NCBI GenBank assembly: GCA_001785515.1
Contig: MFTY01000002.1
Span: 1 to 38,962, forward strand
Length of the DNA stretch: 38,962 nucleotides
Direction: 5' to 3'
Source of the DNA: Candidatus Nomurabacteria bacterium RIFCSPHIGHO2_02_FULL_35_13
Lineage (GTDB): Bacteria; Patescibacteriota; Minisyncoccia; Phycocordibacterales; UBA9973
Under the pieces are notes generated by a model. That model saw nothing but the letters and a program-made list of their open reading frames with translations. It searched no databases and was not told the DNA's origin. The translations under genes were made by a program, and so were the position numbers. Positions 4,375-34,472 of the stretch are shown piece by piece (the first letter of the stretch is position 1; each line of letters opens with the position of its first letter).

Positions 4375-4503
4375 TTTAAAAAATCTAAAAAATATGCACT
4401 TTTTCCGGGTACGGATTTTTTGAAGCTTAAAAAATCCTGAAGTTTTCGCGCCGTCGCGCTCAAAACCCCCTACAAAAGTCATATTTTATAGATTTTTTTA
4501 AAT
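4375..4503. repeat. Structured repeat family 1, copy B
   Basis: Arms 4375-4404 and 4474-4503 are inverted copies of each other with a few mismatches and are unrelated to the arms of other copies. The core has the same hairpin b as copies A, C, D and F. In hairpin a the outer stem is TTT/AAA instead of TTC/GAA. The right arm ends about 2 bp from the rny stop codon. Confidence 0.9.
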
Positions 4504-6873: not shown

Positions 6874-6998
6874 AATAAAAAATAAAGAATGATATTTTTG
6901 CCGGTACGGATTTTTTGAAGCTTAAAAAATCCTGAAATTCTCGCGCCGTCGCGCTTGAAACCCCTTAAAAACATCATTCTTTGTTTTTTATTGATTTT
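6869..6998. repeat. Structured repeat family 1, copy C
   Basis: Left arm 6869-6899 and right arm 6967-6998 are inverted copies with few mismatches. The right arm contains the last codons and stop of tig (minus strand stop at 6988-6990), so the left arm is an inverted copy of a coding 3' end. The core is nearly identical to copies A, D and F. Confidence 0.9.
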
Positions 6999-8117: not shown

Positions 8118-8236
8118 AAAATAAAGACCAAAAGTAAGTTTTTAAGGGGTTTCAAGCGCGACGGCGCAAGAATTTCAGGATTTTTTAAGCTTCAAAAAAT
8201 CCGTACCGGCAAAAATTTACTTTTAGTCTTTATTTC
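8118..8236. repeat. Structured repeat family 1, copy D
   Basis: Arms 8118-8143 and 8211-8236 are near-perfect inverted copies. The core is in the orientation opposite to A-C, reading AAGGGGTTTC, GCGC-GACG-GCGC, then the AAGCTT-loop hairpin. It lies between tig and the small membrane protein at 8247, antisense to both. Confidence 0.9.
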
Positions 8237-12567: not shown

Positions 12568-12661
12568 AATTATGAAAATTAAAAAATTTAAAGCGTCGTG
12601 GGTTCCCTGTCCTTTTGTCCCCGAGGGCGAAGGCGCCAAAATTTTTTGAATTTTAATAATT
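12568..12661. repeat. Structured repeat family 2, upstream of nusA
   Basis: Inverted AT-rich arms (12568-12594 and 12635-12661, a few mismatches) enclose a core that on the minus strand reads GCCTTCGCCCTCGGGGACA, then AGGACAGGGAACCCACGACG. The same core occurs at 27174-27223 and 34406-34452 with different arms. Confidence 0.85.
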
Positions 12662-12749: not shown

Positions 12750-12790
12750 ACATCCCCCAGATAGGGCTTCGGGCCCTATCTGGGGGATGT
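12750..12790. repeat. Perfect 18-bp GC-rich hairpin
   Basis: 12750-12767 (ACATCCCCCAGATAGGGC) is the exact reverse complement of 12773-12790, with loop TTCGG. No U-tract follows on either strand, so it is not a standard terminator. It resembles the other palindromic repeats but occurs once here. Confidence 0.7.
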
Positions 12791-17587: not shown

Positions 17588-17614
17588 AACTAGCAAGGAC
17601 TGTCCTTGCTAGTT
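17588..17614. repeat. Left palindrome of the RAYT cassette
   Basis: A 27-nt palindrome with 13-bp arms around a single T; the half-site is AACTAGCAAGGAC. The inner 23 nt are identical to the palindrome at the right end of the transposase gene (18321-18343). Confidence 0.92.
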
Positions 17615-17626
17615 GAACTACAAGTT

Positions 17627-17640
17627 GATATAATTTAACA
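17627..17640 (+). promoter_or_regulatory. RAYT promoter, extended -10, leaderless type
   Basis: TGaTATAAT (TATAAT at 17629-17634), 6 nt before the ATG at 17641 and 13 bp after the left palindrome. Confidence 0.7.
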
Positions 17641-18324
17641 ATGCAAAGGAAAGATCCATTTGTAGTTGGTGAGTGTTATCATGTCTATAATCGTGGTATT
17701 GATAAAAGAGTCATTTTTAAATCTATTTACGATTATCAGCGTTTTATAATGCTTTTATATATAGCGAATAGTCAAGATCCGATTCATCTTGATAATCTTA
17801 TAAATAAAAATCATAAAAATTATCAAGAAATTTTTGATACAGAACGTGGTAAGTCATTGGTATCAATCGGTGCATGGTCTTTAATGACTAATCATTTTCA
17901 TATTATTTTACGCGAAGAAGTAGAAAGTGGAATAAGTAAATTTATGAAAAAATTTGGTACTGGATATTCAATGTATTTCAATATTAAGTATCAACGTACT
18001 GGTGGACTTTTTGGTGGACCATTTAAGTCAAAACATATTTTAGAAGATTTACACTTAAAGCATTTATTTGGATATGTTCATCTAAATCCACTTGATATTA
18101 AATTTTCTGGTTGGGAAAAATTGATTGACAAAAAACAACCAAAAGAATGGAAAGATTTTTTAGAAGATTATTTATATTCAAGTTATCAGGATTATACTTG
18201 GACAGAACGAAAGGAAGCGAAAATTTTGAATAAAAATGCCTTCCCTAATTATTTTTCAGAAGAAGATTCCTTTGAAGATTTTATTGATAACTATTTGTCG
18301 TTTAATCCAGATAACCTCCACTAG
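17641..18324 (+). CDS. REP-associated tyrosine transposase (RAYT, Y1/HUH family)
   Basis: The 227-residue Y1 transposase (IS200-like fold) starts with FVVGECYHVYNRGIDKRVIF and has the HUH metal motif H85-F-H87 (MTNHFHIIL). Candidate catalytic tyrosines are Y109 or Y112 in the following helix (GTGYSMYFN), followed by the conserved LFGGPFKSKHI block. RAYTs are domesticated single-strand transposases that process REP palindromes. The gene is flanked by two identical 23-nt palindromic cores, and the right one overlaps its stop codon. All catalytic features appear intact. It interrupts the stretch between surface protein genes and the pilus operon. It is the only transposase-type gene in the window and so the best candidate to act on the many palindromic repeats. 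Confidence 0.93.
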   Translation: MQRKDPFVVGECYHVYNRGIDKRVIFKSIYDYQRFIMLLYIANSQDPIHLDNLINKNHKNYQEIFDTERGKSLVSIGAWSLMTNHFHIILREEVESGISKFMKKFGTGYSMYFNIKYQRTGGLFGGPFKSKHILEDLHLKHLFGYVHLNPLDIKFSGWEKLIDKKQPKEWKDFLEDYLYSSYQDYTWTERKEAKILNKNAFPNYFSEEDSFEDFIDNYLSFNPDNLH

Positions 18325-18351
18325 CAAGGACTGTCCTTGCTAGTGGAGGTT
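18313..18351. repeat. Right palindrome of the RAYT cassette, arms extended into the gene end
   Basis: A perfect 39-nt palindrome (19-bp arms, central T). The inner 23 nt equal the left palindrome. The outer 8 bp (AACCTCCA, mirrored by TGGAGGTT) are the last codons of the transposase gene and their inverted copy. The TAG stop lies in the conserved part. Confidence 0.9.
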
Positions 18352-26540: not shown

Positions 26541-26675
26541 GAATTGCAAAAATTGTTGAAGGCATATCTTTTTTAGGGGGTTTGGCGAGCGACGGCGAGC
26601 CAACTTCAGAACTTTTTAAGCTTCAAAAAGTTCGTACCCTAGAAAAAGATATGCCGAGAAAGATTTTTGTAATTC
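26541..26675. repeat. Structured repeat family 1, copy E (covarying copy)
   Basis: Inverted arms 26541-26574 and 26641-26675 are the longest of the family. Hairpin b is GAACTTTTT/AAAAAGTTC instead of GGATTTTTT/AAAAAATCC: two pairs changed, both compensated, loop kept. Hairpin a is TTGGC-GA-GC-GACG-GC-GA-GCCAA, again re-paired with new sequence. It separates the divergent hit and recJ promoters. Confidence 0.92.
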
Positions 26676-26692: not shown

Positions 26693-28438
26693 ATGCAACA
26701 ATACTCGGAACTACTCCGAACGATTTTGGAAAAAAGAGGTATAAGAAATCTGGCTGAAGCTGAGATTTTTTTGAATCCCGATTATGAACGTGATTTATAT
26801 GACCCGTTTGAAATGAAAGATATGGAAAAAGCTTGTGTTAAGCTTTTTGAGGTAATAGAAAATAAGGAGAAGATAGTTATATATGCCGATTATGATTGCG
26901 ACGGCATTCCTGGAGCGGTTATCTTGCAGGATTTATTTAAAAAGATAGGCTATTCAAATTATGAGATTTATATTCCGGGGAGAAACTCAGAAGGTTACGG
27001 ACTTAATCTTTCTGCTATAAAACAATTTGCTCAAAAAAGAGTGAAACTTTTGATAACCATTGACCTTGGTATTACAGCAGTTTCTGAAATTGCACAAGCG
27101 GAAATAGATGGAATTGATGTGATTATCACCGACCACCACTTACCAAAACAGAAAGTTCAGGATGTAAAAAATTCTCCCGCCTTCGCCCTCGGAGACATAA
27201 GTCCAGGGGACCCACGGCTCCTTAATTTTTTACATCCTGAACTTTCTTTGCCGAAAGCTTATGCAATTTTAAATCCAAAAGTTGATAATTACCCTGAAAA
27301 AATATTATGTGGCGCCGGAGTAGTATTCAAATTAGTACAAGGATTTATAAAAAAATACGGAGAATTCTATAAAATAAATACTGGTTGGGAAAAATGGTTG
27401 CTGGATATGGCAGGTTTGGCTACACTTTCAGACCTTGTTCCTCTTGTGGGTGAAAATAGAGCCATGGCATATTTTGGAATAAAGGTTTTAAAAAAATCTC
27501 CTCGCCCTGGTGTGCAAAAACTTCTGTCTAAAATGAAAATTAACCCAAAATACCTGACAGAAGACGATATTGGTTTTATGATAACACCCAGACTCAATGC
27601 AGCATCGCGAATGGATAACCCTATGATGGCATACGAGCTTCTTTCTACGGAAGATGAAGTAAGAGCAGGAGTGATTGCAGACCACTTATCTAAAATAAAT
27701 GATGATAGAAAAACAATGGTCGCCGGTATTATGCGTGAAGTTAATAAAAAATTTGAAAAACGAGAAACTAAGAAAGTTATTGTTATAGGTAATCCCAAAT
27801 GGCGTGTGGGTGTATTGGGACTTGTAGCCAGCAAAATATCAGATGAATACAAAAAACCCGTTTTTGTCTGGGGTAAAGATGAAAATGATATTATAAAAGG
27901 TTCTTGTAGAAGCGATGGGTCAGTATCTCTTGTTGAGCTTATGACTGAAACTAATGAATTTTTTTTAGAATTTGGTGGACACGAATTTGCCGGTGGATTT
28001 ACGGTTCATAGCGAAAAGATCCATTTTTTGGAAGAAGCCCTTTCTCTTTCTTTTAACAAAGTGAAGCGTGATAAAACAGAAAACGAGATAATTTTTGATA
28101 TAAAATCTGATTTGAGTATGGTGAATATGAAAAATTGGCGTGAAATAGAAAAACTTGCTCCCTTTGGGCTAGCTAATCCCAAACCAATTTTTCTTTTTGA
28201 AAACGTGAATATAGAGAATATTAAAAAATTTGGCAAGAACGGGTCAGGGGAACATTTAGAAATTACTTTTTCAGATATAAGTAAAAATAAAGTTAAAGCA
28301 ATTTCTTTTTTCTCTAGCAGTGAATCTTTTAAAGTTCCATTATCAGAAAACATAAAAGTAAATCTTCTCGCAACTTTTGATTTATCCAGATTCAAAGGTA
28401 GAGAAGAGCTAAGACTTAGAATAATTGATATAATATAA
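26693..28438 (+). CDS. recJ: Single-strand-specific exonuclease RecJ
   Basis: The 581-residue DHH-superfamily 5'-3' ssDNA exonuclease has motif I ADYDCDG at 65-71, a further Asp in ITIDLGI (121-127), DHH at 147-149, the DHHA1 domain with SCRSDGSVSLVEL and EFGGHEFAGGF, and a C-terminal OB-like domain (about 460-581). RecJ acts in recombination repair, mismatch repair and processing of transformed DNA. Directly after DHHLP is an insertion of about 30 residues (about 153-186, including SPAFALGDISPGDPRLL). It is encoded by a family 2 repeat with perfect 24-bp inverted arms; in other RecJ proteins the chain goes quickly on to AILNPK. The reading frame is kept. rnhA follows after 7 bp. Confidence 0.95.
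   Translation: MQQYSELLRTILEKRGIRNLAEAEIFLNPDYERDLYDPFEMKDMEKACVKLFEVIENKEKIVIYADYDCDGIPGAVILQDLFKKIGYSNYEIYIPGRNSEGYGLNLSAIKQFAQKRVKLLITIDLGITAVSEIAQAEIDGIDVIITDHHLPKQKVQDVKNSPAFALGDISPGDPRLLNFLHPELSLPKAYAILNPKVDNYPEKILCGAGVVFKLVQGFIKKYGEFYKINTGWEKWLLDMAGLATLSDLVPLVGENRAMAYFGIKVLKKSPRPGVQKLLSKMKINPKYLTEDDIGFMITPRLNAASRMDNPMMAYELLSTEDEVRAGVIADHLSKINDDRKTMVAGIMREVNKKFEKRETKKVIVIGNPKWRVGVLGLVASKISDEYKKPVFVWGKDENDIIKGSCRSDGSVSLVELMTETNEFFLEFGGHEFAGGFTVHSEKIHFLEEALSLSFNKVKRDKTENEIIFDIKSDLSMVNMKNWREIEKLAPFGLANPKPIFLFENVNIENIKKFGKNGSGEHLEITFSDISKNKVKAISFFSSSESFKVPLSENIKVNLLATFDLSRFKGREELRLRIIDII
27150..27247. repeat. Structured repeat family 2, inside recJ
   Basis: Arms 27150-27173 and 27224-27247 are perfect 24-bp inverted repeats. 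The 50-bp core starts CTCCCGCCTTCGCCCTCGG and ends CAGGGGACCCACGGCTCCTT, matching the copies at 12568 and 34386. It is fully translated as part of RecJ. Confidence 0.93.
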
Positions 28439-28445: not shown

Positions 28446-28925
28446 ATGAAAAAAGATAAAATCATAATTTATACCGATGGAGCAGCAAGAGGAAATCCTG
28501 GGAAAGCTGGATGGGCCGGGATTTTTATTATAGGAAAAAATATTGTTGAAATTGGCGGAGCATCTAAACATGCAACGAATAATCAAATGGAACTTACTGC
28601 ACCGATAGAAGCGTTAAAATACTTAAGCAAAATCCCACATGTCCGACATGTGGAAAATATAGAAATTTTTTCTGACTCAAAGTATGTGATTTTAGGAATC
28701 ACAGAATGGATATTTAATTGGCAGAAAAATAATTGGAGAAATGCCGCAAAAAAGCCGGTTTTAAATAAAGAACTTTGGGAAGAACTTTATAAACTTTCAG
28801 AACATTTAAAAATCAAATGGATTTATGTAGAAGGACACAATGGGGATAAATATAATGACCGCGCGGATGAAATAGCTACAAATTTTGCAGACGACCTCAA
28901 AATAGAACTTAAAAACAAAAAATAA
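28446..28925 (+). CDS. rnhA: Ribonuclease HI
   Basis: The 159-residue enzyme removes RNA from RNA-DNA hybrids (primers, R-loops). Active-site residues are D11 (YTDGAARGNPG), E49 (NNQMELTAP), D77 (FSDSKYV) and D141 (NDRADEIA), with the flexible H131. The WxxNxW element (NWQKNNWRNAAKKPV) is of the E. coli type. Between the helix LKYLSK and the strand NIEIFSD there is an extra IPHVRHVE (about 63-70), encoded by a perfect 19-nt palindrome (28635-28653). In other RNases HI this turn is only a few residues. It lies between recJ and comEC on the same strand. Confidence 0.96.
   Translation: MKKDKIIIYTDGAARGNPGKAGWAGIFIIGKNIVEIGGASKHATNNQMELTAPIEALKYLSKIPHVRHVENIEIFSDSKYVILGITEWIFNWQKNNWRNAAKKPVLNKELWEELYKLSEHLKIKWIYVEGHNGDKYNDRADEIATNFADDLKIELKNKK
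28635..28653. repeat. 19-nt palindrome inside rnhA
   Basis: CCACATGTC, central C, GACATGTGG: perfect 9-bp arms. It is translated in a surface turn of RNase HI. Confidence 0.8.
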
Positions 28926-30409: not shown

Positions 30410-30506
30410 TGTTTTTAAGGGGTTTCGAGCGCGACGGCGCGAGAATTTCAGGATTTTTTAAGCTTCAAAAAATCCGTACCGGCAAAAATATTATTCTTGA
30501 GTTTCT
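30394..30506. repeat. Structured repeat family 1, copy F
   Basis: Arms 30394-30416 and 30484-30506 match at 22 of 23 positions. The left arm includes the last five codons and stop of comEC; the right arm ends 1 bp before the sodA stop (minus strand, 30508-30510). The core is nearly identical to copy D. With convergent genes either side, the hairpin could act as a bidirectional terminator here. Confidence 0.92.
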
Positions 30507-34385: not shown

Positions 34386-34472
34386 ATGCTCTGGTAAAGA
34401 ATTTTTGAGCCTTCGCCCTCGGAGTCATAAGGACAGGGAACCCACGACTCTTAAAATTCTTTACCAGAGCAT
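34386..34472. repeat. Structured repeat family 2, between dut and argS
   Basis: Perfect 20-bp inverted arms (34386-34405, ATGCTCTGGTAAAGAATTTT, and 34453-34472). The core reads GAGCCTTCGCCCTCGGAG, then ACAGGGAACCCACGACTC, so GAG/CTC closes it. The frame of argS is open through most of it, but its product does not resemble ArgS. Confidence 0.92.

Follow-up and report, generated by a model that had tools for sequence, protein, structure and literature searches.

The window analysed here, a 38,962-nt stretch that makes up the whole contig G000:C2 of a 554-kb genome in 28 contigs, contains a compact unit at positions 17588-18351, consisting of a palindrome, 26 bp, a gene for a Y1 transposase, and a second palindrome. 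The 5′ palindrome (17588..17614; AACTAGCAAGGACTGTCCTTGCTAGTT) has 13-bp arms and includes a 23-nt core, CTAGCAAGGACTGTCCTTGCTAG, at 17590-17612. The transposase gene lies on the forward strand (17641..18324) and encodes a RAYT-like protein of 227 aa. The core of the 3′ palindrome (18321..18343) contains the TAG stop codon of the gene (18322-18324), and together with its private stem extension this palindrome spans 18313..18351 (AACCTCCACTAGCAAGGACTGTCCTTGCTAGTGGAGGTT; 19-bp arms) and resembles a terminator. Neither palindrome is assigned to a strand. The intact Y1/HUH gene between two palindrome copies was found exactly where the original prediction had placed it. A −10 box, TATAAT (17629..17634, forward strand), was recognized by promoter scan and by comparison of loci; the corresponding −35 box, TTGCTA (17606..17611, forward strand), is located in the right arm of the 5′ palindrome (10/12 match, 17-bp spacer, TG before the −10 box). 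Rfam matched nothing anywhere in the 38,962-nt window.

The product carries the HUH motif as NHFH (residues 84-87; 17890..17901, forward strand) and the catalytic tyrosine, Y145 (18073..18075, forward strand), within YVHLNP. N84, H85, H87, Y145, and N149 were invariant in an alignment of 36 homologs. Pfam profile Y1_Tnp (PF01797) matched with 25.3 bits; the NCBIfam profile for REP-associated tyrosine transposases (NF047646, REP_Tyr_transpos) scored 30.6 bits, which is below its cut-off of 80. At the sequence level, phmmer found no match in the PDB. The AlphaFold2 model (pLDDT 91.7), in contrast, had as its first structural match the RAYT-REP hairpin complex 4ER8 (E 4.7e-6), with the transposases of ISDra2 and IS608 among the next. 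HUH motif and Y-x3-NP tyrosine motif are those of the RAYT-like class 2 of TnpA-Y1 proteins, and the predicted fold is that of TnpA-REP. Of the C-terminal HTH domain of TnpA-Y1 subclass 2.1, no Pfam match was found in any of the 36 members, while the C-terminal region of the model is helical. Named close matches of the protein are mostly from Candidatus Nomurabacteria. Within the literature collection searched, no paper on RAYTs in the Candidate Phyla Radiation was found.

The Y1_Tnp domain and the structural resemblance to ISDra2 and IS608 might also be expected of an ordinary IS200/IS605 insertion sequence. However, transposases of that group comprise ∼150 aa and have a Y-x3-Q motif (PMC6006769), as opposed to 227 aa and Y-x3-NP here, the seven copies in the genome are divergent rather than near-identical, and symmetric perfect palindromes form both edges of the unit. 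The features tested thus disfavour an IS200/IS605 identity, which we regard as highly improbable.

Allowing for up to three mismatches, the 554-kb genome contains just two copies of the 23-nt core, both beside the gene, whereas the reversed control pattern did not occur at all. The transposase is not the only gene of its kind in the genome; a profile search revealed seven Y1_Tnp genes, divergent from one another and each with palindromic repeats alongside, usually ∼45 bp upstream of the start codon and again at the stop codon. For six of the seven the palindromes at both ends match; the seventh (on contig C14) is interrupted by masked bases. Clear palindrome copies away from the own gene were found only for the RAYT on C19 (on C20 and C23), and the palindrome of the C15 RAYT has one near copy elsewhere (C21). 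Palindromes also lie within two or three of the paralogous genes (RAYT C9b, C9:20900-21582, and the RAYTs on C23 and C19), two of these three being copies of the end palindrome of the gene itself. The palindrome CCACATGTCCGACATGTGG and its relatives (window positions 28635-28653; C20:9078-9121; C13:3706-3726) are RAYT-like in form; no RAYT gene was found adjoining them.

RAYT homologs are present in 100 of the 147 genomes of the GTDB family and in 16 of its 24 genera; all genomes compared are drafts, mostly assembled from metagenomes, with one genome per species. From these, 116 homologous loci were collected, 114 of which were testable for sharing between their ends. Upstream and downstream regions shared at least 11 nt in 110/114 loci, compared with 59/400 swapped controls, and an independent set gave the same picture (48/68 loci versus 9/300 controls). 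The apex of the palindromes is fixed within each clade (RRACNGTYY and AGGYCTTGCCT), and the apex of the window palindrome also flanks the close homologs. The 5 nt of stem beside the apex, in contrast, are private to each element and identical at both of its ends: such identity was observed in 29/34 cases within elements of clade A, versus 205/1122 between elements, and in 29/37 versus 28/1332 for clade B. The private stems track the protein tree. The promoter geometry is equally general: in the two clades, 37/39 and 35/37 loci have a −10 box, mostly 17 bp from a −35-like hexamer in the right arm of the 5′ palindrome. Since the −35 box is embedded in the palindrome, an enzyme binding there would cover its own promoter and may thereby repress its own gene. 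In six loci (L085, L086, L087, L094, L097, and L102), tandem or truncated palindrome copies resembling slippage products lie upstream.

The architecture of the unit corresponds to that of the TIRYT/TIRtron elements (Di Nocera 2013, PMC3733652), and the motifs of its protein to subclass 2.1 (Quentin 2018, PMC6006769), a TIRYT-like group without a reported REP. Common to all are HUH and Y-x3-NP signatures (here NHFH and YVHLNP) in a protein of ∼230 aa. As in TIRtrons, matching inverted repeats, some of them self-complementary, surround the Y1 gene and have few or no further copies in the genome. The GGGGWSAS motif, which is present in the terminal repeats of most, though not all, described cases (PMC3733652), is absent from the palindromes of the window. 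Unlike in TIRtrons, each end is a short, perfect palindrome in which the apex is fixed by clade and the stem is private, the −35 box lies inside the 5′ palindrome, and the hosts are Patescibacteria. With the REPtron of E. coli (TnpA-REP; PDB 4ER8), the unit has in common the fold, the HUH motif, the tyrosine, and a cognate palindrome of its own flanking the gene. The GT[AG]G foot of the canonical REPtron is absent from the palindromes of the window and was seen at 5/556 homologous ends, compared with seven in shuffled sequences, and the dispersed intergenic REP copies of the canonical REPtron are likewise missing from the genome. The double-foot REPs of TnpA-Y1 subclass 2.4 (PMC6006769) are similar in being near-perfect palindromes, some of which reside inside transposase genes, but those of the window lack the GT[AG]G feet, and the protein has the motifs of subclass 2.1. 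Judged by sequence, the unit would be a variant of the known RAYT/TIRYT kind, from which it differs by its apex/stem palindromes and the embedded −35 box. We consider it probable that positions 17588-18351 constitute a self-contained, "TIRtron"-like RAYT/TIRYT unit comprising a promoter, the gene for an HUH/Tyr single-stranded DNA nuclease, and two private palindromes.

The right palindrome extends beyond the stem it has in common with the left one by 7 private bp, which corresponds to 8 bp past the 23-nt core. The inner arm of this extension is formed by the final codons of the gene, and the outer arm is TGGAGGTT; the 8-bp extension reading into the gene end, which had been described before, is confirmed at 18313-18351. 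Stem extensions of at least 6 bp were present at 7/89 5′ ends and 5/89 3′ ends of the homologous loci (5.6-7.9%), as opposed to 0.04-0.08% with mismatched flanks, and at 4/48 and 6/48 ends of the independent set (0-0.04% with mismatched flanks). Because such locus-specific extensions occur far above chance, the inverted-flank pattern, which the original prediction had likened to that of two other hairpin families of the window (families 1 and 2), is real and general. At L303, both ends have long extensions, which differ from each other. Comparing the arms for polarity, identity to relatives was 0.48 for the inner and 0.42 for the outer arms; in a single case, the inner CCTCCACTAG is common to the window and L083, whereas the outer arm is not.

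One explanation for such extensions is that the palindromes serve chiefly to terminate transcription and that a longer stem was selected for this purpose. The right palindrome indeed scans as a terminator (18 pairs and a T-rich tail), its RNA fold is very stable (−40.5 kcal/mol, z −7.2), and in relatives an ordinary terminator precedes pilB. However, termination explains neither the identical private stem at both ends of the unit, nor the upstream copy at the position of the −35 box, nor the extensions devoid of a T tract (L099 and L100). Selection for termination is therefore unlikely to be the main cause and is at best a partial rival to a template switch during replication of the hairpin, which appears the likeliest origin of the extensions. 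There is precedent for template switching at hairpins (PMC8794818), in which the stem arms become uniform and longer as the sequence of one arm is copied to the opposite side, as seems to happen here; the present case differs in that the hairpins are transposase palindromes and that the mechanism is deduced from their sequence.

The unit is inserted upstream of pilB. In relatives with PilB proteins 78-90% identical, a pilin-like gene and a terminator precede pilB, and no RAYT is present; the flanks are too diverged to define a precise empty site, but presence and absence are clear. The unit was thus most likely acquired at this site within the lineage of the window. Between different species, the homology of units with 82-85% nucleotide identity is bounded by the edges of the palindromes, the units residing in unrelated contexts (L186/L210, L198/L199, and L196/L211). 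RAYTs of clade A, to which the window unit belongs, recur in type IV pilus clusters at three positions: upstream of pilD (L080, L082, L085, L087, and L106), between pilM and pilN (L083, L084, and L086), and at pilB (the window). The pilD sites of L082, L085, L087, and L106 and the pilM-N sites of L083, L084, and L086 are orthologous across species, which points to long vertical residence of these units and counts against their movement. With one genome per species, no movement between close strains was observed either. At pilD, genome G086 has a single palindrome (L331, near 1426), while G142 has the arrangement palindrome-RAYT-palindrome (L164); the lone palindrome would fit a loss between palindromes and, equally, a site before insertion. 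An apparent truncated 5′ fragment of a RAYT lies upstream of L164. Insertion into a pre-existing palindrome was rejected as a general rule, as a palindrome is missing from most pilD loci that lack a RAYT.

Hairpin family 1 is present in the window at 8143-8207, 26573-26638, 30416-30480, 6903-6967, and 4408-4473, with 14 more copies in the genome, and family 2 at 27179-27216, 34409-34446, and 12597-12634, with 11 more. Inverted flanks exceeded the 95th percentile of the mismatched-flank control in 17/18 copies of family 1 and 13/14 of family 2. One family 2 copy with long inverted flanks (27164-27231) is contained in the reading frame of recJ (26693-28438). A third family, AGATAGGGCTT..AAGCCCTATCT, occurs in the window at 12750-12790 and on contigs C4, C13, C15, C23, and C25; it also has locus-specific stem extensions, and 9 nt of it (GCTTAAAGC) are common with the palindrome of the RAYT at L238.

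The original prediction had proposed that the RAYT of the window acts in trans as the engine of several hairpin families, families 1 and 2 in particular, with which it shares the inverted-flank pattern. A RAYT-type enzyme with matching palindromes is indeed present, and the flanks, strongly inverted in both families, are so more weakly at RAYT palindromes. Within the genus, which comprises 80 genomes, the presence of families 1 and 2 is associated with that of any RAYT (odds ratios 5.3 and 6.0, p ∼0.005, ignoring kinship). On the other hand, none of the cores taken from the palindromes at 139 RAYT loci has more than 9 nt in common with families 1, 2, and 3, and every RAYT comes with a palindrome pair of its own. 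Among RAYT-positive genomes, copy number does not follow the number of RAYTs (rho 0.13 for family 1 and −0.05 for family 2), and the link with the window's own clade is not significant (p 0.18 and 0.06). Save for one hit, both families are confined to one genus, compared with the 16/24 genera that have RAYTs. In four genomes (G110, G113, G114, and G139), family 1 is present and two profile searches found no Y1 gene, although these carry just one or two family 1 copies each; in G133, 22 copies coexist with a single RAYT, the palindrome of which is unrelated. With no shared motif, no dose relation, and an association uncorrected for phylogeny, a role of the RAYT in trans on families 1 and 2 is unlikely, and that the window RAYT in particular drives them is very doubtful. 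These findings revise the view that a single RAYT serves every hairpin family of the window.

Taken as a RAYT/TIRYT unit acting on its own ends, the locus could function as follows. The palindromes would fold into hairpins on single-stranded DNA, such as the lagging-strand template, where the enzyme would recognize the clade-specific apex together with the paired stem. Cleavage at the foot of the hairpin via Y145 might then allow the unit to be moved or processed, while enzyme bound to the right arm of the 5′ palindrome, which doubles as −35 box, would keep its own gene repressed. Stem extensions such as AACCTCCA/TGGAGGTT would most likely result from a template switch in DNA synthesis at the hairpin, by which one flank becomes an inverted copy of the opposite one. 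More speculatively, and with rather low odds in our estimation, the RAYT reaction in Patescibacteria, or the replication that it provokes at hairpins, would rewrite both palindromes jointly and copy flanks in inverted orientation, and the same host process would also produce the flank inversions seen in families 1 and 2.

The loci provide well over 100 natural pairs of an enzyme and its private palindrome, in which the apex is fixed while the stem varies but matches at both ends. Recognition and co-evolution are thereby directly testable with proteins and oligonucleotides, in genomes of only ∼0.5 Mb, which bears on how RAYTs select and spread palindromes. If flanks are indeed rewritten as proposed, hairpin-primed snap-back synthesis would be a general route by which small elements spread and grow in the genomes of Patescibacteria.
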